Assembly: GCF_004343305.1 (NCBI RefSeq)
Contig: NZ_SMAF01000003.1
Span: 1 to 64,000, forward strand
Direction of reading: 5' to 3'
DNA: 64,000 nt
From: Pseudofulvimonas gallinarii
GTDB lineage: Bacteria; Pseudomonadota; Gammaproteobacteria; Xanthomonadales; UBA2363
The stretch's first letter is position 1. The number at the start of each line of letters is the position of its first letter. Positions 20,785-27,670 of this stretch are shown one piece after another. A program made the position numbers and the translations under genes. The notes beneath the pieces were generated by a model. It was not told the origin of the DNA. It made no database searches and saw nothing but the letters and a program-made list of their open reading frames with translations.

Positions 20785-20850
20785 CCGCGGGATCGTCGCG
20801 CGCCGCGCCAGGTCCTACACTTGCCGCCAGGTGATTGGGGACCTTTGAAC

Positions 20851-21714
20851 ATGATCCATCTGGGCAGCGTGCTGTCGCCGTCGCATTACGCCGGGCAGCC
20901 CTTTCCGCATTTCGTCGTGCCCGATGCGTTGCCGGCATCCGTGTATTCGACACTGGCGGCGGCGCTGCCTGACGACGTGCGCATCCGCCAGGGCGGCGAG
21001 CCGGGTGACAACCGGCGCTTCAGCTGGTCGGCGCGGCATACGCTGGTGGACGGCGAGCTTGATCCTGCGTGGCGGTCCTTCATCGCCGCCAATGTGTCGC
21101 AGGATTTCCTCGATGCGGTACTTGCCGCATTCGCGCCGGCGATCCGGCAGCGGTATCCGTGGCTGGAAGATCGCCTCGGGCCGATCTCCGGCTGGCGTGC
21201 CGGCGTGCGTCGTCGCGATGACTTCAGCACCGCCGACGTCCTGCTCGACGCGCAGGTCTGCCTGAATTCGCCCGTGCTCGCCGGCGCCTCTGCGGTGCGC
21301 GGCCCGCACGTCGACAAACCCGACAAGCTGTTCGCCGGGCTGCTCTACATGCGTCCCGACGATGACACCGAGACCGTCGGTGGCGAACTGCAGTTGCAGC
21401 GCTACCGCCATTCCTCCGCCCGCTTCGATGGCAGCCAGCTGGATCCCGGTGATGTCGAAACCGTCCGCCAGGTGCCCTACGCCGGCAATACACTGGTGAT
21501 GTTCCTGAACGGCATCGACGCGATCCATGCGGTGACGCCGCGGCAGCCGGTGGCGCGCAGTCGTTATTTCCTCAACATCGTCGGCGAAGTGCCGGTACCG
21601 CTGTTCGACCTGAAGTCCCGCCAGCGTCGTTTCCGACAGCTGCGTCGCCTGGCCACGCGCATCGGTGACGCGCTGCACGGCCGACGCAGGGATTCCGGGC
21701 AGTTGCGCGACTGA
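20851..21714 (+). CDS. 2OG-Fe(II) oxygenase-like protein
   Basis: This cytoplasmic protein of 287 aa resembles prolyl-hydroxylase-type 2-oxoglutarate/Fe(II) dioxygenases. The iron ligands are apparent in HVDKPDK (HxD) and the distal IHAVTPR, where His binds iron and Arg would bind 2-oxoglutarate. The substrate is unknown. The ATG at 20851 is chosen because an upstream in-frame TTG gives a 10-residue extension with no family resemblance. It opens a group of glycan-type genes, so it may hydroxylate a sugar, lipid carrier or surface protein. Confidence 0.7.
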   Translation: MIHLGSVLSPSHYAGQPFPHFVVPDALPASVYSTLAAALPDDVRIRQGGEPGDNRRFSWSARHTLVDGELDPAWRSFIAANVSQDFLDAVLAAFAPAIRQRYPWLEDRLGPISGWRAGVRRRDDFSTADVLLDAQVCLNSPVLAGASAVRGPHVDKPDKLFAGLLYMRPDDDTETVGGELQLQRYRHSSARFDGSQLDPGDVETVRQVPYAGNTLVMFLNGIDAIHAVTPRQPVARSRYFLNIVGEVPVPLFDLKSRQRRFRQLRRLATRIGDALHGRRRDSGQLRD

Positions 21715-21774: not shown

Positions 21775-22692
21775 TCAACCGCCGTGACGCAGCCGGTGCC
21801 GCAGGCGATACCAGAACGCCAGCCAGGGCCGGCGCCGGATGGCTTCGTCGCGACGGCGCGCCGCATCGGCCTTCTTGCGTTCGGCGAAGCGTCGCAGCAG
21901 ACGGCCGTTGGGCACGAAACCCTTTGCCCGGTCCCAGGCAAGGAGACTGGCGGGATCGGATTTCGCCGGCCTGTCCGACAGGCCGAGCTCGCGCAGGATC
22001 GACGGCCGCAGGTAGCCTTCGGCGATCTCGATGTCCAGCTCGTCAGGGGTGATCTCTCCACTGTCGAGCAGCGCACGCACCTGCTTCACCCAAAGCCCGC
22101 CATGTGGATGGCAGGGATACACCCAGGGCTGGGTGCGGATTTCGGTGTAGTGCAGGTTGCAGGTCGTGCCCGGGCGATAGATGTCCAGGTCGTTCCAGCC
22201 GTTCGGCAGGCCGTCACCGATCTCCTGCGGCGACAACAGGGGTGTCAGCGCCATCAGCGGGTTGTAGCCGTAGCTGACGCCAAGGCCGCCGACAATCGCG
22301 GCGACGTCCCAGTCCAGGCGCGAGCAGTCCAGCATCATCACCGCCGCCTGCTTGCCCTTGCCGGGGTCGGCGCCCTGTTCGATCAGCACCTTCGCCGGTC
22401 CGAATGCGATGTCGAACAACGGTGCGATGTCGGCGAACACCAGCATGTCCGAGTCCATGTACAGGGCGCGACCCTGGAAACCGGCCAGGGCCGGGATCGC
22501 GAAGCGCGCGAACGAGAACTCGGTGTACGGCGCGAAGCGCGGCTCGGCAACCGGCGGCGCCAGCGAGTTGTCGATGGTGCGGATTTCTACCGGGCGGCTG
22601 GCGTACTGGCGGATCGAGGCGGCCAGTACCTTGAACGGCAGTTGCTGGCTGCGGTCGGCACCGCAGAAGATGCGGATCGGGGTCGTGGACAT
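21775..22692 (-). CDS. Glycosyltransferase, GT8-like
   Basis: This 305-aa protein resembles family 8-like retaining glycosyltransferases: it opens IFCGADRSQQLPFKVLAASI and has the metal-binding YMDSDML (DxD) near residue 80, then MMLDCSRL and a His-rich LHYTEI...PCHPHGG region. The C-terminus is strongly basic (about 270-305), suited to membrane contact. It is transcribed opposite to its neighbours. The donor and acceptor are unknown. Confidence 0.7.
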   Translation of the reverse strand: MSTTPIRIFCGADRSQQLPFKVLAASIRQYASRPVEIRTIDNSLAPPVAEPRFAPYTEFSFARFAIPALAGFQGRALYMDSDMLVFADIAPLFDIAFGPAKVLIEQGADPGKGKQAAVMMLDCSRLDWDVAAIVGGLGVSYGYNPLMALTPLLSPQEIGDGLPNGWNDLDIYRPGTTCNLHYTEIRTQPWVYPCHPHGGLWVKQVRALLDSGEITPDELDIEIAEGYLRPSILRELGLSDRPAKSDPASLLAWDRAKGFVPNGRLLRRFAERKKADAARRRDEAIRRRPWLAFWYRLRHRLRHGG

Positions 22693-22750: not shown

Positions 22751-23578
22751 ATGGCGACCAGCGTGATCCTGTCCACCTACAACCAGCCGGAATGGCTGGA
22801 GAAATGCCTGCTCGGTTACGCCGCGCAGGACCGCCTCGATTTCGAGGTGGTGATCGCCGACGACGGCTCGCGGGACGATACCCGGGCGCTGCTTGACGCC
22901 ATGCGTCCGCGACTCCCGTTCGACCTCGTCCATGTCTGGCAGGAGGATGCCGGTTTCCGGAAATGCCGGGCGCTGAACCTGGCCGTCCTCGCGGCATCGG
23001 GCGATTACCTGCTGTTCTCCGACGGCGACTGCATCCCGCGGCCCGACTTCGTGTCGGTACACCTGCGCGAACGCGAGCCGGGCCGGTTCCTGTCTGGCGG
23101 TTACTGCAAGCTGCCGCGTGCGCTCAGCCTGGCGATCAGCAGCGACGACATCGCCAGCGGCCGCGCCACCGACGCGGCATGGCTGCGTGCCAGCGGCATG
23201 AAGCGTCGCACGCTCAAGATCGCCCGCCATCCGCTGTGGCGGCAGCGCGTGCTCAATGCGCTGACACCGACCCGGCCGCGCTGGCATGGCCACAATGCGT
23301 CCGCCTGGAAGAGCGACATCGTGCGCGTCAACGGCTTCGACGAACGACTGAGCTACGGCGCCGAAGACCTCGAATTCGGCGACCGCCTGGTGAACGCCGG
23401 CGTGCGCGGCAAGCAGATCCGTTTTTCCGCGGTCTGCGTCCACCTCGACCATGACCGCGGCTACGTGCAGCCCGGCATGCGCGACGCCAACGAAGCCCTG
23501 CGCGCGGTCACCATCCGCGAACGCCTGGTCTGGGCGGTGCACGGCCTCGACGGCCACCGCGGACCGCCCGTCCGGTGA
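22751..23578 (+). CDS. Family 2 glycosyltransferase
   Basis: This is an inverting GT-A glycosyltransferase of 275 aa. Nucleotide-binding motifs are at the start (VILSTYNQPEWLEKCL and VIADDGSRD), with the DxD equivalent FSDGDCIP near residue 95. GFDERLSYGAEDLEFGDRL (ED motif) near 195-215 resembles the galactosyltransferase/chondroitin-type subgroup. The stop overlaps the next gene by four bases, so the two products probably act on the same glycan. Confidence 0.82.
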   Translation: MATSVILSTYNQPEWLEKCLLGYAAQDRLDFEVVIADDGSRDDTRALLDAMRPRLPFDLVHVWQEDAGFRKCRALNLAVLAASGDYLLFSDGDCIPRPDFVSVHLREREPGRFLSGGYCKLPRALSLAISSDDIASGRATDAAWLRASGMKRRTLKIARHPLWRQRVLNALTPTRPRWHGHNASAWKSDIVRVNGFDERLSYGAEDLEFGDRLVNAGVRGKQIRFSAVCVHLDHDRGYVQPGMRDANEALRAVTIRERLVWAVHGLDGHRGPPVR

Positions 23579-24669
23579 CGGCGCGGCTGTTCATCGCGTC
23601 GACCCCGATGATCGCGCTGGCCTGCGCCGGCGCCGCACTGGCCCACCCCGGACGATCCCGTCTGCTGCTCATCGAGGATTTCGATCTGGCGGGGCGGTTG
23701 CAGGATCTGCTCGAAGGCTGGCGTGACAATCCCTTCGAAGCGATCATGCGCCTCCCCGGCCGCCACACCGAGCATGTGATGGGTGCGCGCGATGGCGGCA
23801 GCGGCGTCCGCCATTTCCTGCACCGCCTGAGGGTGAAGCGCGCGCTTCGCCGGCAGACGCTGACGGAAATCGAAAAGATCGACGCCAGTCTTCGCCCCGA
23901 CGAGGTGTGGCTGGGCAATGACCGCAAGCCGGAAACGCAGCTGGCCCTGCATCGAGCCAGCCAGCGTGCGCGGCAGCCGGTCGGGCGCTATCTCGACGAT
24001 GGCCTCTACAGCTACCTCGGCGATGTCCGCCAGCGGCCTCTGGTCCGGCGCATCGATGCCTTCGTCAAGCGCCTGGGGTACGGACGCTGGTGGCAGCGCG
24101 CCGACCATGCCGGCACGACGTCCTGGATCCGCGAGGCCTGGCTGGTGTTCATCGACGAGGAGACGCCTTATCCGCCGCACCTGCGTCGCGCCCTGCCGCG
24201 GCACTGGTACGACGGCAGGCCCATCTGCCGGCTGGGCCTGCAGGCCGCACGTGCCTTCGGACTCGATCGGCGCGCACTGTCGAAAGTCGGCCTGGTCCTG
24301 GTGCTGCCGCATTCCAACCAGCTGCGCGCGAATCACGGGTTGCTCCAGCGCCTGCGCGATCGCGTCCGGGATGAGTGCGGCCGGGGCCGTCAGGTCGCGG
24401 TGAAATACCATCCGCGCGAAATCGATCCCGATCCCGCCGGCCTGCTGCGCGACGGCACGGTCCGCGCACTGCCCACGCTGCTGCCCCTGGAGTTGATCCT
24501 GCCGTTGTTGCCGCCCGGCGTTGCCCTGCTCGGGGAAGGCTCGACGGCATTGCTGGCGGCGCGCTGGCTGCGGCCCGACCTTGCGGTGGCCGACCTTGGC
24601 TTCAGCCAGGACGGTTACGCGGCCAGGGCGCGCGAGCTGTTCGCGCGCCACGGCATCCATCGCGAGTAG
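23575..24669 (+). CDS. Sialyl/polysialyltransferase-like glycosyltransferase
   Basis: This 364-aa cytoplasmic protein has the spaced motifs of bacterial sialyltransferases (GT38/GT52/GT80): a D/E-D/E-G motif as LDDGLYSY (140-147), an HP motif as KYHPRE (277-282), and a downstream Ser-Thr in GEGSTAL (320-326). Overall likeness is to polysialyltransferase-type proteins. No CMP-sialic acid synthesis genes are in the window, so the donor may be another CMP- or nucleotide-linked acidic sugar. The GTG start overlaps the family 2 glycosyltransferase stop (GTGA). Confidence 0.62.
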   Translation: MTARLFIASTPMIALACAGAALAHPGRSRLLLIEDFDLAGRLQDLLEGWRDNPFEAIMRLPGRHTEHVMGARDGGSGVRHFLHRLRVKRALRRQTLTEIEKIDASLRPDEVWLGNDRKPETQLALHRASQRARQPVGRYLDDGLYSYLGDVRQRPLVRRIDAFVKRLGYGRWWQRADHAGTTSWIREAWLVFIDEETPYPPHLRRALPRHWYDGRPICRLGLQAARAFGLDRRALSKVGLVLVLPHSNQLRANHGLLQRLRDRVRDECGRGRQVAVKYHPREIDPDPAGLLRDGTVRALPTLLPLELILPLLPPGVALLGEGSTALLAARWLRPDLAVADLGFSQDGYAARARELFARHGIHRE

Positions 24670-24851
24670 CGCGACCGCACACCTGTCCGGGGCCGGCCAA
24701 CAGTCCGCGGCGTGGCAAGGCGGCGCCGATACAGGTCGAGATCGTCAATTCGAGTACTTGCCCACGTTGGGTATGGAAGGCGCCAGCCTGTGTGGCGGGT
24801 CGCCAGCGCGGCCGCTATGCTGCGCTGTCGTTTTTTCGCAACGGAGCGTCC

Positions 24852-26271: not shown

Positions 26272-27198
26272 TCAGGCGTTGCGTCGGCGCCGGGTGTTGG
26301 CACCGTAGCGCGGCGCCTCGCCCGGAGGTCGCCGGCTGAAGCGCTTGTAGGTCCACGCATACTGCGCCGGCGCCCGGCGCACCATTGCTTCGATGGTCGC
26401 GTTCATGGCGGCGGTGGCGCGGACGGGATCCTCCTCGTACAGGCCTTCCGGCGCCGGCACGAACCGGATCCGGAACCCCGCGCTGCCGGGCAGCCTCTCC
26501 GCGCAACCGAATACGGCGACGCAGCGCTGCGCGATGCGCGGCGCCAGCGTCATGGTCAGCGCCTCGACGCCGAAGAACGGTGCGAACACGCCTTCGCCGA
26601 TCTTCGGCTGCTGGTCGGGCAGGATGCCGATCAGGTCGCCGGCCGCCAGTCGCCGGATGAGGGTGCGCGGCGCCTGCTTGTCGGCGCGGATCAGGTCCAT
26701 GCCCAGGGCGCCGCGACTGCGCACGATGGCGGCTTCGACGGCGGCACTGGACGGCGGCCGGTAGAGCACCGCGCCCGGCCCGGTGCCCGCCAGATAGAGG
26801 TTCAGCAGCTCCCAGGCGCCCAGGTGCGGCGCCAGCACCAGCACGCCGCGGCCTTGGGCGCGCGCCTGCACCAGCAGTTCGCCGCCCTCGACCTCGCGGA
26901 TCCATTGCAGGGCGCGTCGTGGCCGGGTCCAGATCCGGAACGCTTCCAGCATGCTGCGGCCCGATTCTCGCATCGTTTCCTCGGCCAGCGCCCGTCGCTG
27001 CGCGTCATCCAGTTCCGGAAAGCACATCTCGAGGTTGCGCAGGGTTATGTGCCAGGCCCGGCCGCGCTGGCGTCCGCCCAGCCATCCGCCCAGCCGGTGC
27101 AGCCAGCGCAGCGGCAGGCTGCCGATCAGCCAGAACGCGATGTAGGCGAGGCGACCGCCCAGGCCTGGAGCGGAAGCGGATGGGGATTTCGTGGACAC
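26272..27198 (-). CDS. Lipid A biosynthesis acyltransferase (LpxL/HtrB family)
   Basis: This inner-membrane enzyme transfers a secondary acyl chain to the lipid A precursor. A hydrophobic N-terminus (YIAFWLIGSLPLRWL) precedes the catalytic HLGAWELLNLY (HxxxxE) near residue 110, then GILPDQQPKIGEGVFAPFFG and YAWTYKRF. The GTG at 27198 is preferred, giving 308 aa, because an ATG 30 codons earlier would overlap the divergent dtd start. The C-terminus is Arg-rich. Which acyl position it serves cannot be told. Confidence 0.87.
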   Translation of the reverse strand: MSTKSPSASAPGLGGRLAYIAFWLIGSLPLRWLHRLGGWLGGRQRGRAWHITLRNLEMCFPELDDAQRRALAEETMRESGRSMLEAFRIWTRPRRALQWIREVEGGELLVQARAQGRGVLVLAPHLGAWELLNLYLAGTGPGAVLYRPPSSAAVEAAIVRSRGALGMDLIRADKQAPRTLIRRLAAGDLIGILPDQQPKIGEGVFAPFFGVEALTMTLAPRIAQRCVAVFGCAERLPGSAGFRIRFVPAPEGLYEEDPVRATAAMNATIEAMVRRAPAQYAWTYKRFSRRPPGEAPRYGANTRRRRNA

Positions 27199-27232
27199 TG
27201 TGGGATGCGGAAGCCGTGGAGCGTAAACAGCG

Positions 27233-27670
27233 ATGATCAGCCTGATCCAGCGGGTGGAACAAGCACGGGTGGTGGTGGAAGGCGACACGGTGGGCGAAAT
27301 CGGCGCCGGCCTGCTGGCGCTGGTGGCGGTGCAGCCTGGCGATGATGAAGATACACCGGCGCGGATGCTGGACCGGCTGCTGCGCTACCGGGTGTTCGCC
27401 GACGAGGCCGGCCGCATGAACCGCTCGCTGGCCGATACCGGCGGTGGCCTGCTGCTGGTGTCGCAGTTCACGCTGGCCGCCGATACGCGCAGCGGGCTGC
27501 GACCGAGTTTCTCGACGGCGGCACCGCCGGAACAGGCGCAGCGGTTGTTCGAGGTGCTGGTGTCGCAGGCCCGGGCGCGGCATGCGCAGGTGGCGACGGG
27601 CCGTTTCGGCGCCGACATGCGCGTCCATCTGGTCAACAGCGGGCCGGTCACGTTCTGGCTGGAAGTCTGA
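27233..27670 (+). CDS. dtd: D-aminoacyl-tRNA deacylase
   Basis: This homodimeric enzyme removes D-amino acids (and glycine from tRNA-Ala) wrongly attached to tRNA. Both catalytic motifs are present: SQFTLAADT near residue 77 and the C-terminal [11 protein letters not shown]. The length of 145 is exact for the family. It is divergent from the lipid A acyltransferase with only 34 bases between the starts. Confidence 0.95.

Follow-up and report, generated by a model that had tools for sequence, protein, structure and literature searches.

A candidate CMP-Kdo transferase of the sialyltransferase kind in Pseudofulvimonas gallinarii

Which sugar is transferred by an enzyme that carries the motifs of a bacterial sialyltransferase in a host that apparently cannot make sialic acid? 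This question is raised by a gene of Pseudofulvimonas gallinarii at positions 23575-24669 of a 64,000-nucleotide stretch of DNA (positions 1 to 64,000 of contig NZ_SMAF01000003.1, assembly GCF_004343305.1), which we refer to at its full length as the window. An earlier reading, made from the sequence alone, had proposed a candidate sialyl- or polysialyltransferase. Our analysis points to an inverting transferase of the sialyltransferase kind that would use cytidine monophosphate-activated 3-deoxy-D-manno-oct-2-ulosonic acid (CMP-Kdo) as its donor and work with the products of the adjacent GT2 and GT8 genes. We place the probability of this reading, in which we infer the donor and the linkage, at roughly 0.6.

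Gene, motifs and predicted fold

The open reading frame (ORF) starts with GTG and encodes 364 amino acids, with the stop codon inside the coordinates 23575-24669 (plus strand). An overlapping open frame of 399 amino acids lies on the minus strand at the same place, so the open frame alone is little proof of a gene. However, relatives with 63%, 61% and 46% identity align over almost the full length of the protein (the genes of Arenimonas composti and Coralloluteibacterium stylophorae are 61-63% identical to it), and the structure model built from the family alignment is very confident. On account of this length-wide conservation and the model, we conclude that the ORF encodes a genuine protein.

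A first genome scan with the single target sequence confirmed no relative, and a tblastn search of phages with the target gave no match. The earliest relatives found beyond the order were two Halorussus plasmid proteins (26-31% identity), annotated as members of the polysialyltransferase family. On the Halorussus aquaticus plasmid (L014 8001-12636), the archaeal relative and a gene with an N-acetylneuraminate synthase family annotation are about 2.5 kb apart. A nine-row alignment scanned against one genome per species returned 88 relatives, of which 80 were kept, representing 78 loci. The 78 aligned rows used below comprise the window protein and 77 relatives, and they are not 78 independent cases, as near-copies are present (L058/L059/L066 and L115/L116). 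The relatives come chiefly from Thiomicrospira, Thiomicrorhabdus and Hydrogenovibrio, from Oceanospirillaceae and from Lysobacteraceae.

At E <= 0.01, 65 of the 78 aligned proteins matched the polysialyltransferase model PF07388 (the best at 1.7e-14) and four matched PF07922 (GT52); three matched PF02350 (epimerase) weakly. When five relatives were scanned singly against PF07388, the two Halorussus proteins passed the cut-off, two fell just below it and one had no match. The window protein itself did not match PF07922, PF05159 (KpsC/KpsS) or PF04413 (GT30 WaaA). A phmmer search of the PDB with the single target sequence gave chance-like matches only. With a profile of the family alignment, 11 PDB matches were obtained and all 11 were GT80 sialyltransferases, although the matches were weak (E 0.025-0.088), over a stretch that includes the K-x-HP motif and an FE pair. 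Our open-access literature search of titles, abstracts and passages found no study of this gene family.

The target gene and its conserved elements are as follows (residues are numbered in the window protein):

23575-24669, plus strand: target gene; its product of 364 amino acids is a candidate GT-B transferase of the sialyltransferase kind whose donor would be a CMP-ulosonate, probably CMP-Kdo (assigned from motifs, family and fold)
23920-23940, plus strand: family signature DRKPETQ, residues 116-122; D116, R117 and Q122 identical in 78 of 78 aligned members
23992-24015, plus strand: D/E-D/E-G motif LDDGLYSY, residues 140-147; D142 would serve as catalytic base, by comparison with E153 of MhPST as described in PMC5517516
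24403-24420, plus strand: K-x-H-P motif KYHPRE, residues 277-282; K277, H279 and P280 identical in 78 of 78
24490-24492, plus strand: E306, invariant in the 78 aligned rows; the glutamate proposed to bind ribose, at the place of E338 in PM0188 (cf. E323 in MhPST)
24532-24552, plus strand: Ser/Thr motif GEGSTAL, residues 320-326, where the phosphate would bind

The patterns used in the scan for relatives included the D/E-D/E-G motif and a GNDR motif that covers the DRKPETQ stretch, so the conservation of these two elements partly reflects how the relatives were picked; K277, H279, P280 and E306 lie outside the scan patterns. The loose pattern [DE][DE]G..HP..[ST][ST] occurred in 41 of 5000 composition-preserving shuffles of the target protein, in 8 of 5000 once K.HP was added, and in none of 5000 as a five-part pattern that combines K.HP with the spacing to E306. 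Among the 125 ORFs of at least 200 amino acids in the window, the loose and five-part patterns both match the target only. The motif set is therefore more than chance.

Residue counting on the profile alignment, in which we take the PM0188 chain to start at residue 25, places H279 on H311 of PM0188 and E306 on E338. Both PM0188 residues are described as catalytically important in the portion of PMC4202792 used here. In MhPST, the polysialyltransferase of Mannheimia haemolytica, the passages of PMC5517516 that we cite assign E153 as base and H291 as acid, with E323 on the ribose and S339/T340 near the phosphate. The target spacing D142/H279/E306/S323-T324 is close to that of MhPST E153/H291/E323/S339.

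The AlphaFold2 model of the target, built from the 78-row alignment, has a mean pLDDT (predicted local distance difference test) of 94.4 and a pTM (predicted template modelling score) of 0.92. Its best Foldseek matches in the PDB are structures of the M. haemolytica GT38 polysialyltransferase (5wc6, E 4.5e-9; 5wcn, 5.9e-9), followed by uridine diphosphate (UDP)-sugar 2-epimerases (5.4e-8 and weaker), GT52 (1.0e-6) and GT80 (8.2e-6). VIA-align also places the GT38 enzyme first (Z 20.7, 321 residues, root-mean-square deviation 4.8), with GT80 2zwi at Z 19.0 and other enzymes at 17.3 or less; KpsC, WbbB, KrkA and WaaA are not among the 50 VIA-align matches listed, which excludes nothing. A GT-B fold alone would be uninformative, and it is the combination of this fold with the invariant catalytic set that leads us to call the enzyme sialyltransferase-type. 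The model and the profiles support a sialyltransferase-type GT-B enzyme that is nearest to GT38 (PF07388) in both fold and profile. In this respect the sequence-only reading has held up well: the ORF and its three motifs are in place and in order (residues 140-147, 277-282 and 320-326), and fold, motifs and family agree on the type of enzyme.

The donor sugar

We searched for the donor pathway using PF03102, which we take to be the family of NeuB-type synthases of sialic, legionaminic and pseudaminic acids. Control genomes gave matches in this search. The window genome gave none, and NeuB was likewise found in none of the three closest Lysobacteraceae carriers of the target gene. The 47 carrier genomes, which come from 50 of the 78 loci, comprise 34 with NeuB and 13 without, the three nearest Lysobacteraceae being among the 13. 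In a quick tree of 82 rows, the window protein groups with the three Lysobacteraceae carriers (support 99). Presence or absence of NeuB requires seven changes on this tree, compared with a mean of 12.4 in 200 shuffles, and at least six of the changes are forced by well-supported branches. Absence of NeuB is scattered over the tree, and the four-member Lysobacteraceae clade lacks it entirely. Our open-access search found nothing on Lysobacteraceae lipopolysaccharide (LPS) with sialic acid. The label "polysialyltransferase family" on the two Halorussus relatives invites a claim of sialic acid synthesis that the window host and its nearest relatives apparently cannot bear out.

We also looked for CTP_transf_3 proteins (PF02348). 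Exactly one is present in each of the three nearest Lysobacteraceae carriers, and two same-genus genomes also have one each. The window genome has two, and both of these, together with the Arenimonas protein, pass the NCBIfam cut-off for KdsB. The two window-genome copies (L029, L030), each adjoined by msbA- and exbD-like genes named from their sequence, are at:

G000:C36:4222-4875: KdsB copy on contig C36
G000:C1:168146-168796: KdsB copy on contig C1

Contig C36 is 11 kb long and of lower GC content (63.5% versus 68%), and its KdsB copy may be foreign or mis-binned. Among the other ten NeuB-less carriers, nine have a strong CTP_transf_3 match and one (G778) has a weak match below the cut-off. 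Extra matches in NeuB-less carriers include a second full-length protein (G796), a domain in a 473-amino-acid frame (G793) and weak partial matches that look GlmU-like by length. The WaaA-type model PF04413 had one match in each of the six genomes tested, that of the window genome being on contig C10.

As NeuB was not found and KdsB accounts for both CTP_transf_3 proteins in the window genome, CMP-Kdo is the most likely donor; judged from gene content, it is the only CMP-ulosonate route detectable in the window clade. A CMP-type donor is also favoured by the lysine of the K-x-H-P motif, invariant here, which usually reads the cytosine ring according to the section of PMC12887879 consulted; the same section describes (K/R)XHP as common to sialyltransferases and retaining Kdo transferases. 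The sialic-acid-like sugar that had been suggested from the sequence is accordingly unsupported for this organism, whereas the wider suggestion of acidic-sugar surface decoration still stands if the acidic sugar is taken to be Kdo. The sequence-only reading had also named two findings that would jointly tell against it, and these part company: a structural match to a sialyltransferase fold was found (GT38), while a CMP-nonulosonate pathway was not.

We infer the following mechanism. The CMP-activated 3-deoxy-ulosonic acid would bind to the C-terminal domain, with K277 contacting the cytosine, E306 the ribose, and H279 and S323/T324 the phosphate. D142 in the N-terminal domain would deprotonate the acceptor hydroxyl and H279 would stabilise CMP. 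In the host and its Lysobacteraceae relatives the donor would most likely be CMP-Kdo, and inversion would leave Kdo (or a derivative of it) in alpha linkage to a surface glycan, probably the LPS core. The acceptor glycan would be assembled by the GT2 and GT8 partners, and the enzyme would act in addition to WaaA.

Several observations weigh against a CMP-Kdo transferase. Pfam and NCBIfam models gave no match to the window protein (no Pfam family at E <= 1), its sequence agrees with that of the solved GT38 enzyme at about 12% of positions, and no heptosyltransferase or O-antigen ligase was found among the window proteins scanned. The donor argument proceeds by elimination within the window's own clade, and many relatives could use sialic-acid-type donors; the family does not reveal the donor of any one clade. 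Genes for NeuB and NeuC lie near the relative in five of the 78 loci, accompanied by a CTP_transf gene in L074, L116, L120 and L124 but not in L115, and in genome G516 NeuB is about 260 bases from the relative. NeuB is also commoner in carriers (34/47) than in a sample of the class (147/369); these are raw counts, the carriers forming phylogenetic clumps and the class figure taking in weak matches (by hand count, E exceeds 1e-30 for about 39 of the 147).

The neuA-, neuB- and neuC-like genes beside several relatives (L124 and L074, for example) and the NeuB counts favour a true sialyl- or nonulosonate transferase, using N-acetylneuraminic, legionaminic or pseudaminic acid supplied by scavenging or by a pathway that our searches missed, which would also fit the sialyltransferase fold and motifs. 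We regard it as unlikely: NeuB is missing from the whole clade to which the window protein belongs, and scavenging would still need a CMP-sialate synthetase, whereas the two proteins of the window genome that might fill that role are identified as KdsB by the curated model.

It is improbable that the protein is a GT-B enzyme for a UDP- or guanosine diphosphate (GDP)-activated sugar, or an enzyme like UDP-N-acetylglucosamine 2-epimerase, with a likeness to sialyltransferases at the level of fold only. Such epimerases and their kin make up many of the next Foldseek matches after GT38, and three of the 78 members match PF02350 weakly, but 65 match PF07388, and cytosine is usually read in this superfamily, according to PMC12887879, by the K-x-H-P lysine, which is invariant here.

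The window locus and neighbourhoods across the family

Around the target, the window contains the following features:

20821-21714, plus strand: 2-oxoglutarate (2OG)-Fe(II) oxygenase-like protein; PF13640 match weak, below the curated cut-off
21775-22692, minus strand: GT8-like glycosyltransferase, divergent from the GT2 gene; conserved partner in the three nearest relatives
22751-23578, plus strand: GT2 glycosyltransferase (domain scan made from start 22733); conserved partner in the three nearest relatives
24804-24837, plus strand: hairpin and T-run resembling a terminator, in the gap that separates the target from the response regulator downstream (consensus scan; 3 such sites versus 1.6 expected)
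26272-27288, minus strand: lipid A acyltransferase, the sole lipid A gene nearby

The full order is RsmB, NtrY-like kinase, 2OG-Fe(II) oxygenase, GT8-like (minus), GT2, target, NtrX-like regulator, lipid A acyltransferase (minus), Dtd and RpoD, where RsmB, Dtd, RpoD and the Ntr proteins are named by sequence appearance. The stop codon of the GT2 gene (TGA, 23576-23578) overlaps the GTG start of the target (23575-23577) such that the genes share 4 bases, suggesting translational coupling. Both neighbours named in the sequence-only reading, the coupled GT2 gene and the nearby oxygenase, are thus present; the GT8-like gene between the oxygenase and GT2 had gone unmentioned.

GT8, GT2 and the target are kept together in C. 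stylophorae and A. composti, and in a Lysobacteraceae metagenome-assembled genome (MAG) all three lie with the oxygenase within about 6 kb. An oxygenase-like protein also occurs in the L049 cassette (59% conserved), and a sugar-modifying role for it is possible. Its structure model, made from two sequences, is unusable (pLDDT 34.8), and sequence searches of the PDB with the oxygenase and the GT8-like protein gave nothing telling. Strong target matches were found in four of 398 genomes of the order (the window genome, Arenimonas, the MAG and G191). For the GT8-like protein, a search of 396 genomes from the order gave matches of at least 60% in just three, the window genome, Arenimonas and the MAG, and one 40% match and two weaker ones elsewhere. 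The target gene is absent from both same-genus genomes searched, and the GT8-GT2-target cassette for this reason looks mobile or often lost.

Neighbour families across the 78 loci were typed on representatives (MsbA was named from its sequence, without a model), and the counts are raw, without a background rate. Wzy_C, GT9, LpxL or MsbA is present in the flanks of 61 loci, and GT9, LpxL or MsbA in those of 43. We count this LPS-type setting in favour of the proposed role. In 26 loci a KpsS-like PF05159 protein is encoded no more than two ORFs away from the target (the typed representative is at L094 14132-15271); it is upstream of the target in loci such as L061, L105 and L084, and a GT2/GT92-like gene often follows the target. 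A small protein like GT29, a sialyltransferase family, is near the target in eight of the 78 loci (cluster 27; L051 11158-11799), often with a polysaccharide pyruvyltransferase-like gene.

The frequent KpsC/KpsS-kind neighbours, together with the (K/R)XHP motif shared with retaining Kdo transferases, would fit a retaining beta-Kdo transferase acting by double displacement, as in KpsC, WbbB and KrkA (GT107, GT99, GT140). We consider this quite improbable, since the window protein has no PF05159 match and does have the D/E-D/E-G base motif of inverting enzymes, and since the position of the nucleophilic aspartate appears, from the alignment, to be H246 (histidine in 73 of 78 members). The literal reading of the family name, a polymerising alpha-2,8-polysialyltransferase making a capsule, is highly unlikely despite the name borne by the closest fold and Pfam neighbours, as no sialic acid synthesis was found in the window genome, the seven proteins covered by the scan of the target's surroundings in the window include no capsule-export protein, and the relatives are mostly beside LPS-core genes.

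Genes for an HMGL-like aldolase and for a KdsB-like protein occur in three target loci (L057, L054 and L117); L057 and L117 also have a HAD phosphatase, which was not found in L054. Such cassettes are at:

L057/L031 4450-7471: target locus
L117 4300-7240: target locus; genes directly upstream of the target relative, on the same strand
L054 8056-10418: target locus
L138 1-2881: outside the target loci, in a NeuB-less genome

The cassette outside the target loci is that of the NeuB-less genome G796, on a contig other than that of the relative. We consider the aldolase/KdsB-like/HAD cassette a candidate for an uncharacterised CMP-ulosonate pathway; an open-access search found no paper on a pathway combining HMGL and KdsB. 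As neu genes accompany some loci and the aldolase cassette others, the family may follow whichever CMP-ulosonate is made. We tentatively suggest, at somewhat less than even odds, that the inverting sialyltransferase superfamily has here a large gammaproteobacterial branch, apparently uncharacterised, whose members use whichever CMP-3-deoxy-ulosonate their genome makes: Kdo in NeuB-less genomes, a sialic-acid-type sugar beside neu genes, and an undescribed ulosonate from the HMGL/KdsB-like/HAD genes.

Comparison with known systems

The closest known system is GT38 (MhPST, 5wc6/5wcn; PF07388), which gives the best fold match, shares the base motif, HP motif, ribose glutamate, Ser/Thr site and their spacing, and has the Pfam model matched by 65 of 78 members. 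The differences are the identity of about 12%, the missing Pfam match of the window protein itself, the lack of a detected sialic acid pathway in the host, and a capsule-type context as opposed to the LPS-type context among the target relatives. GT80 (PmST1/PM0188, 2zwi) is the second fold family by Z score (19.0) and its profile alignment spans the H311/E338 region, but the profile E-values are just 0.025-0.088 and the spacing from base to HP motif is longer in GT80. GT52 (Neisseria NST, 2yk5-2yk7) comprises GT-B sialyltransferases of lipooligosaccharide (LOS), with a Foldseek E-value of about 1e-6 and PF07922 matches in 4 of 78 members; the window protein, however, has no PF07922 match and the TM-score is low (0.35-0.39).

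KpsC/KpsS, WbbB and KrkA (GT107, GT99, GT140) use CMP-Kdo, as we propose for the target, and (K/R)XHP is conserved in GT99 and GT107 according to PMC12887879. In contrast to the window protein, which has no PF05159 match, they are retaining enzymes that act by double displacement with an aspartate nucleophile. A functional precedent for the proposed role is KdoT of Acinetobacter baumannii, a second, non-WaaA, inverting GT-B enzyme which, according to PMC12856342, attaches a further Kdo to the core of LOS. The likeness is one of function: in that paper KdoT is described as a member of another family, ELM1-like and with an SRRT motif, and no single catalytic base is identified. If its donor is Kdo, the target would be an inverting Kdo transferase with the active site of a sialyltransferase, joining WaaA and the newly described KdoT, and would show donor choice shifting between C8 and C9 ulosonates within one fold.

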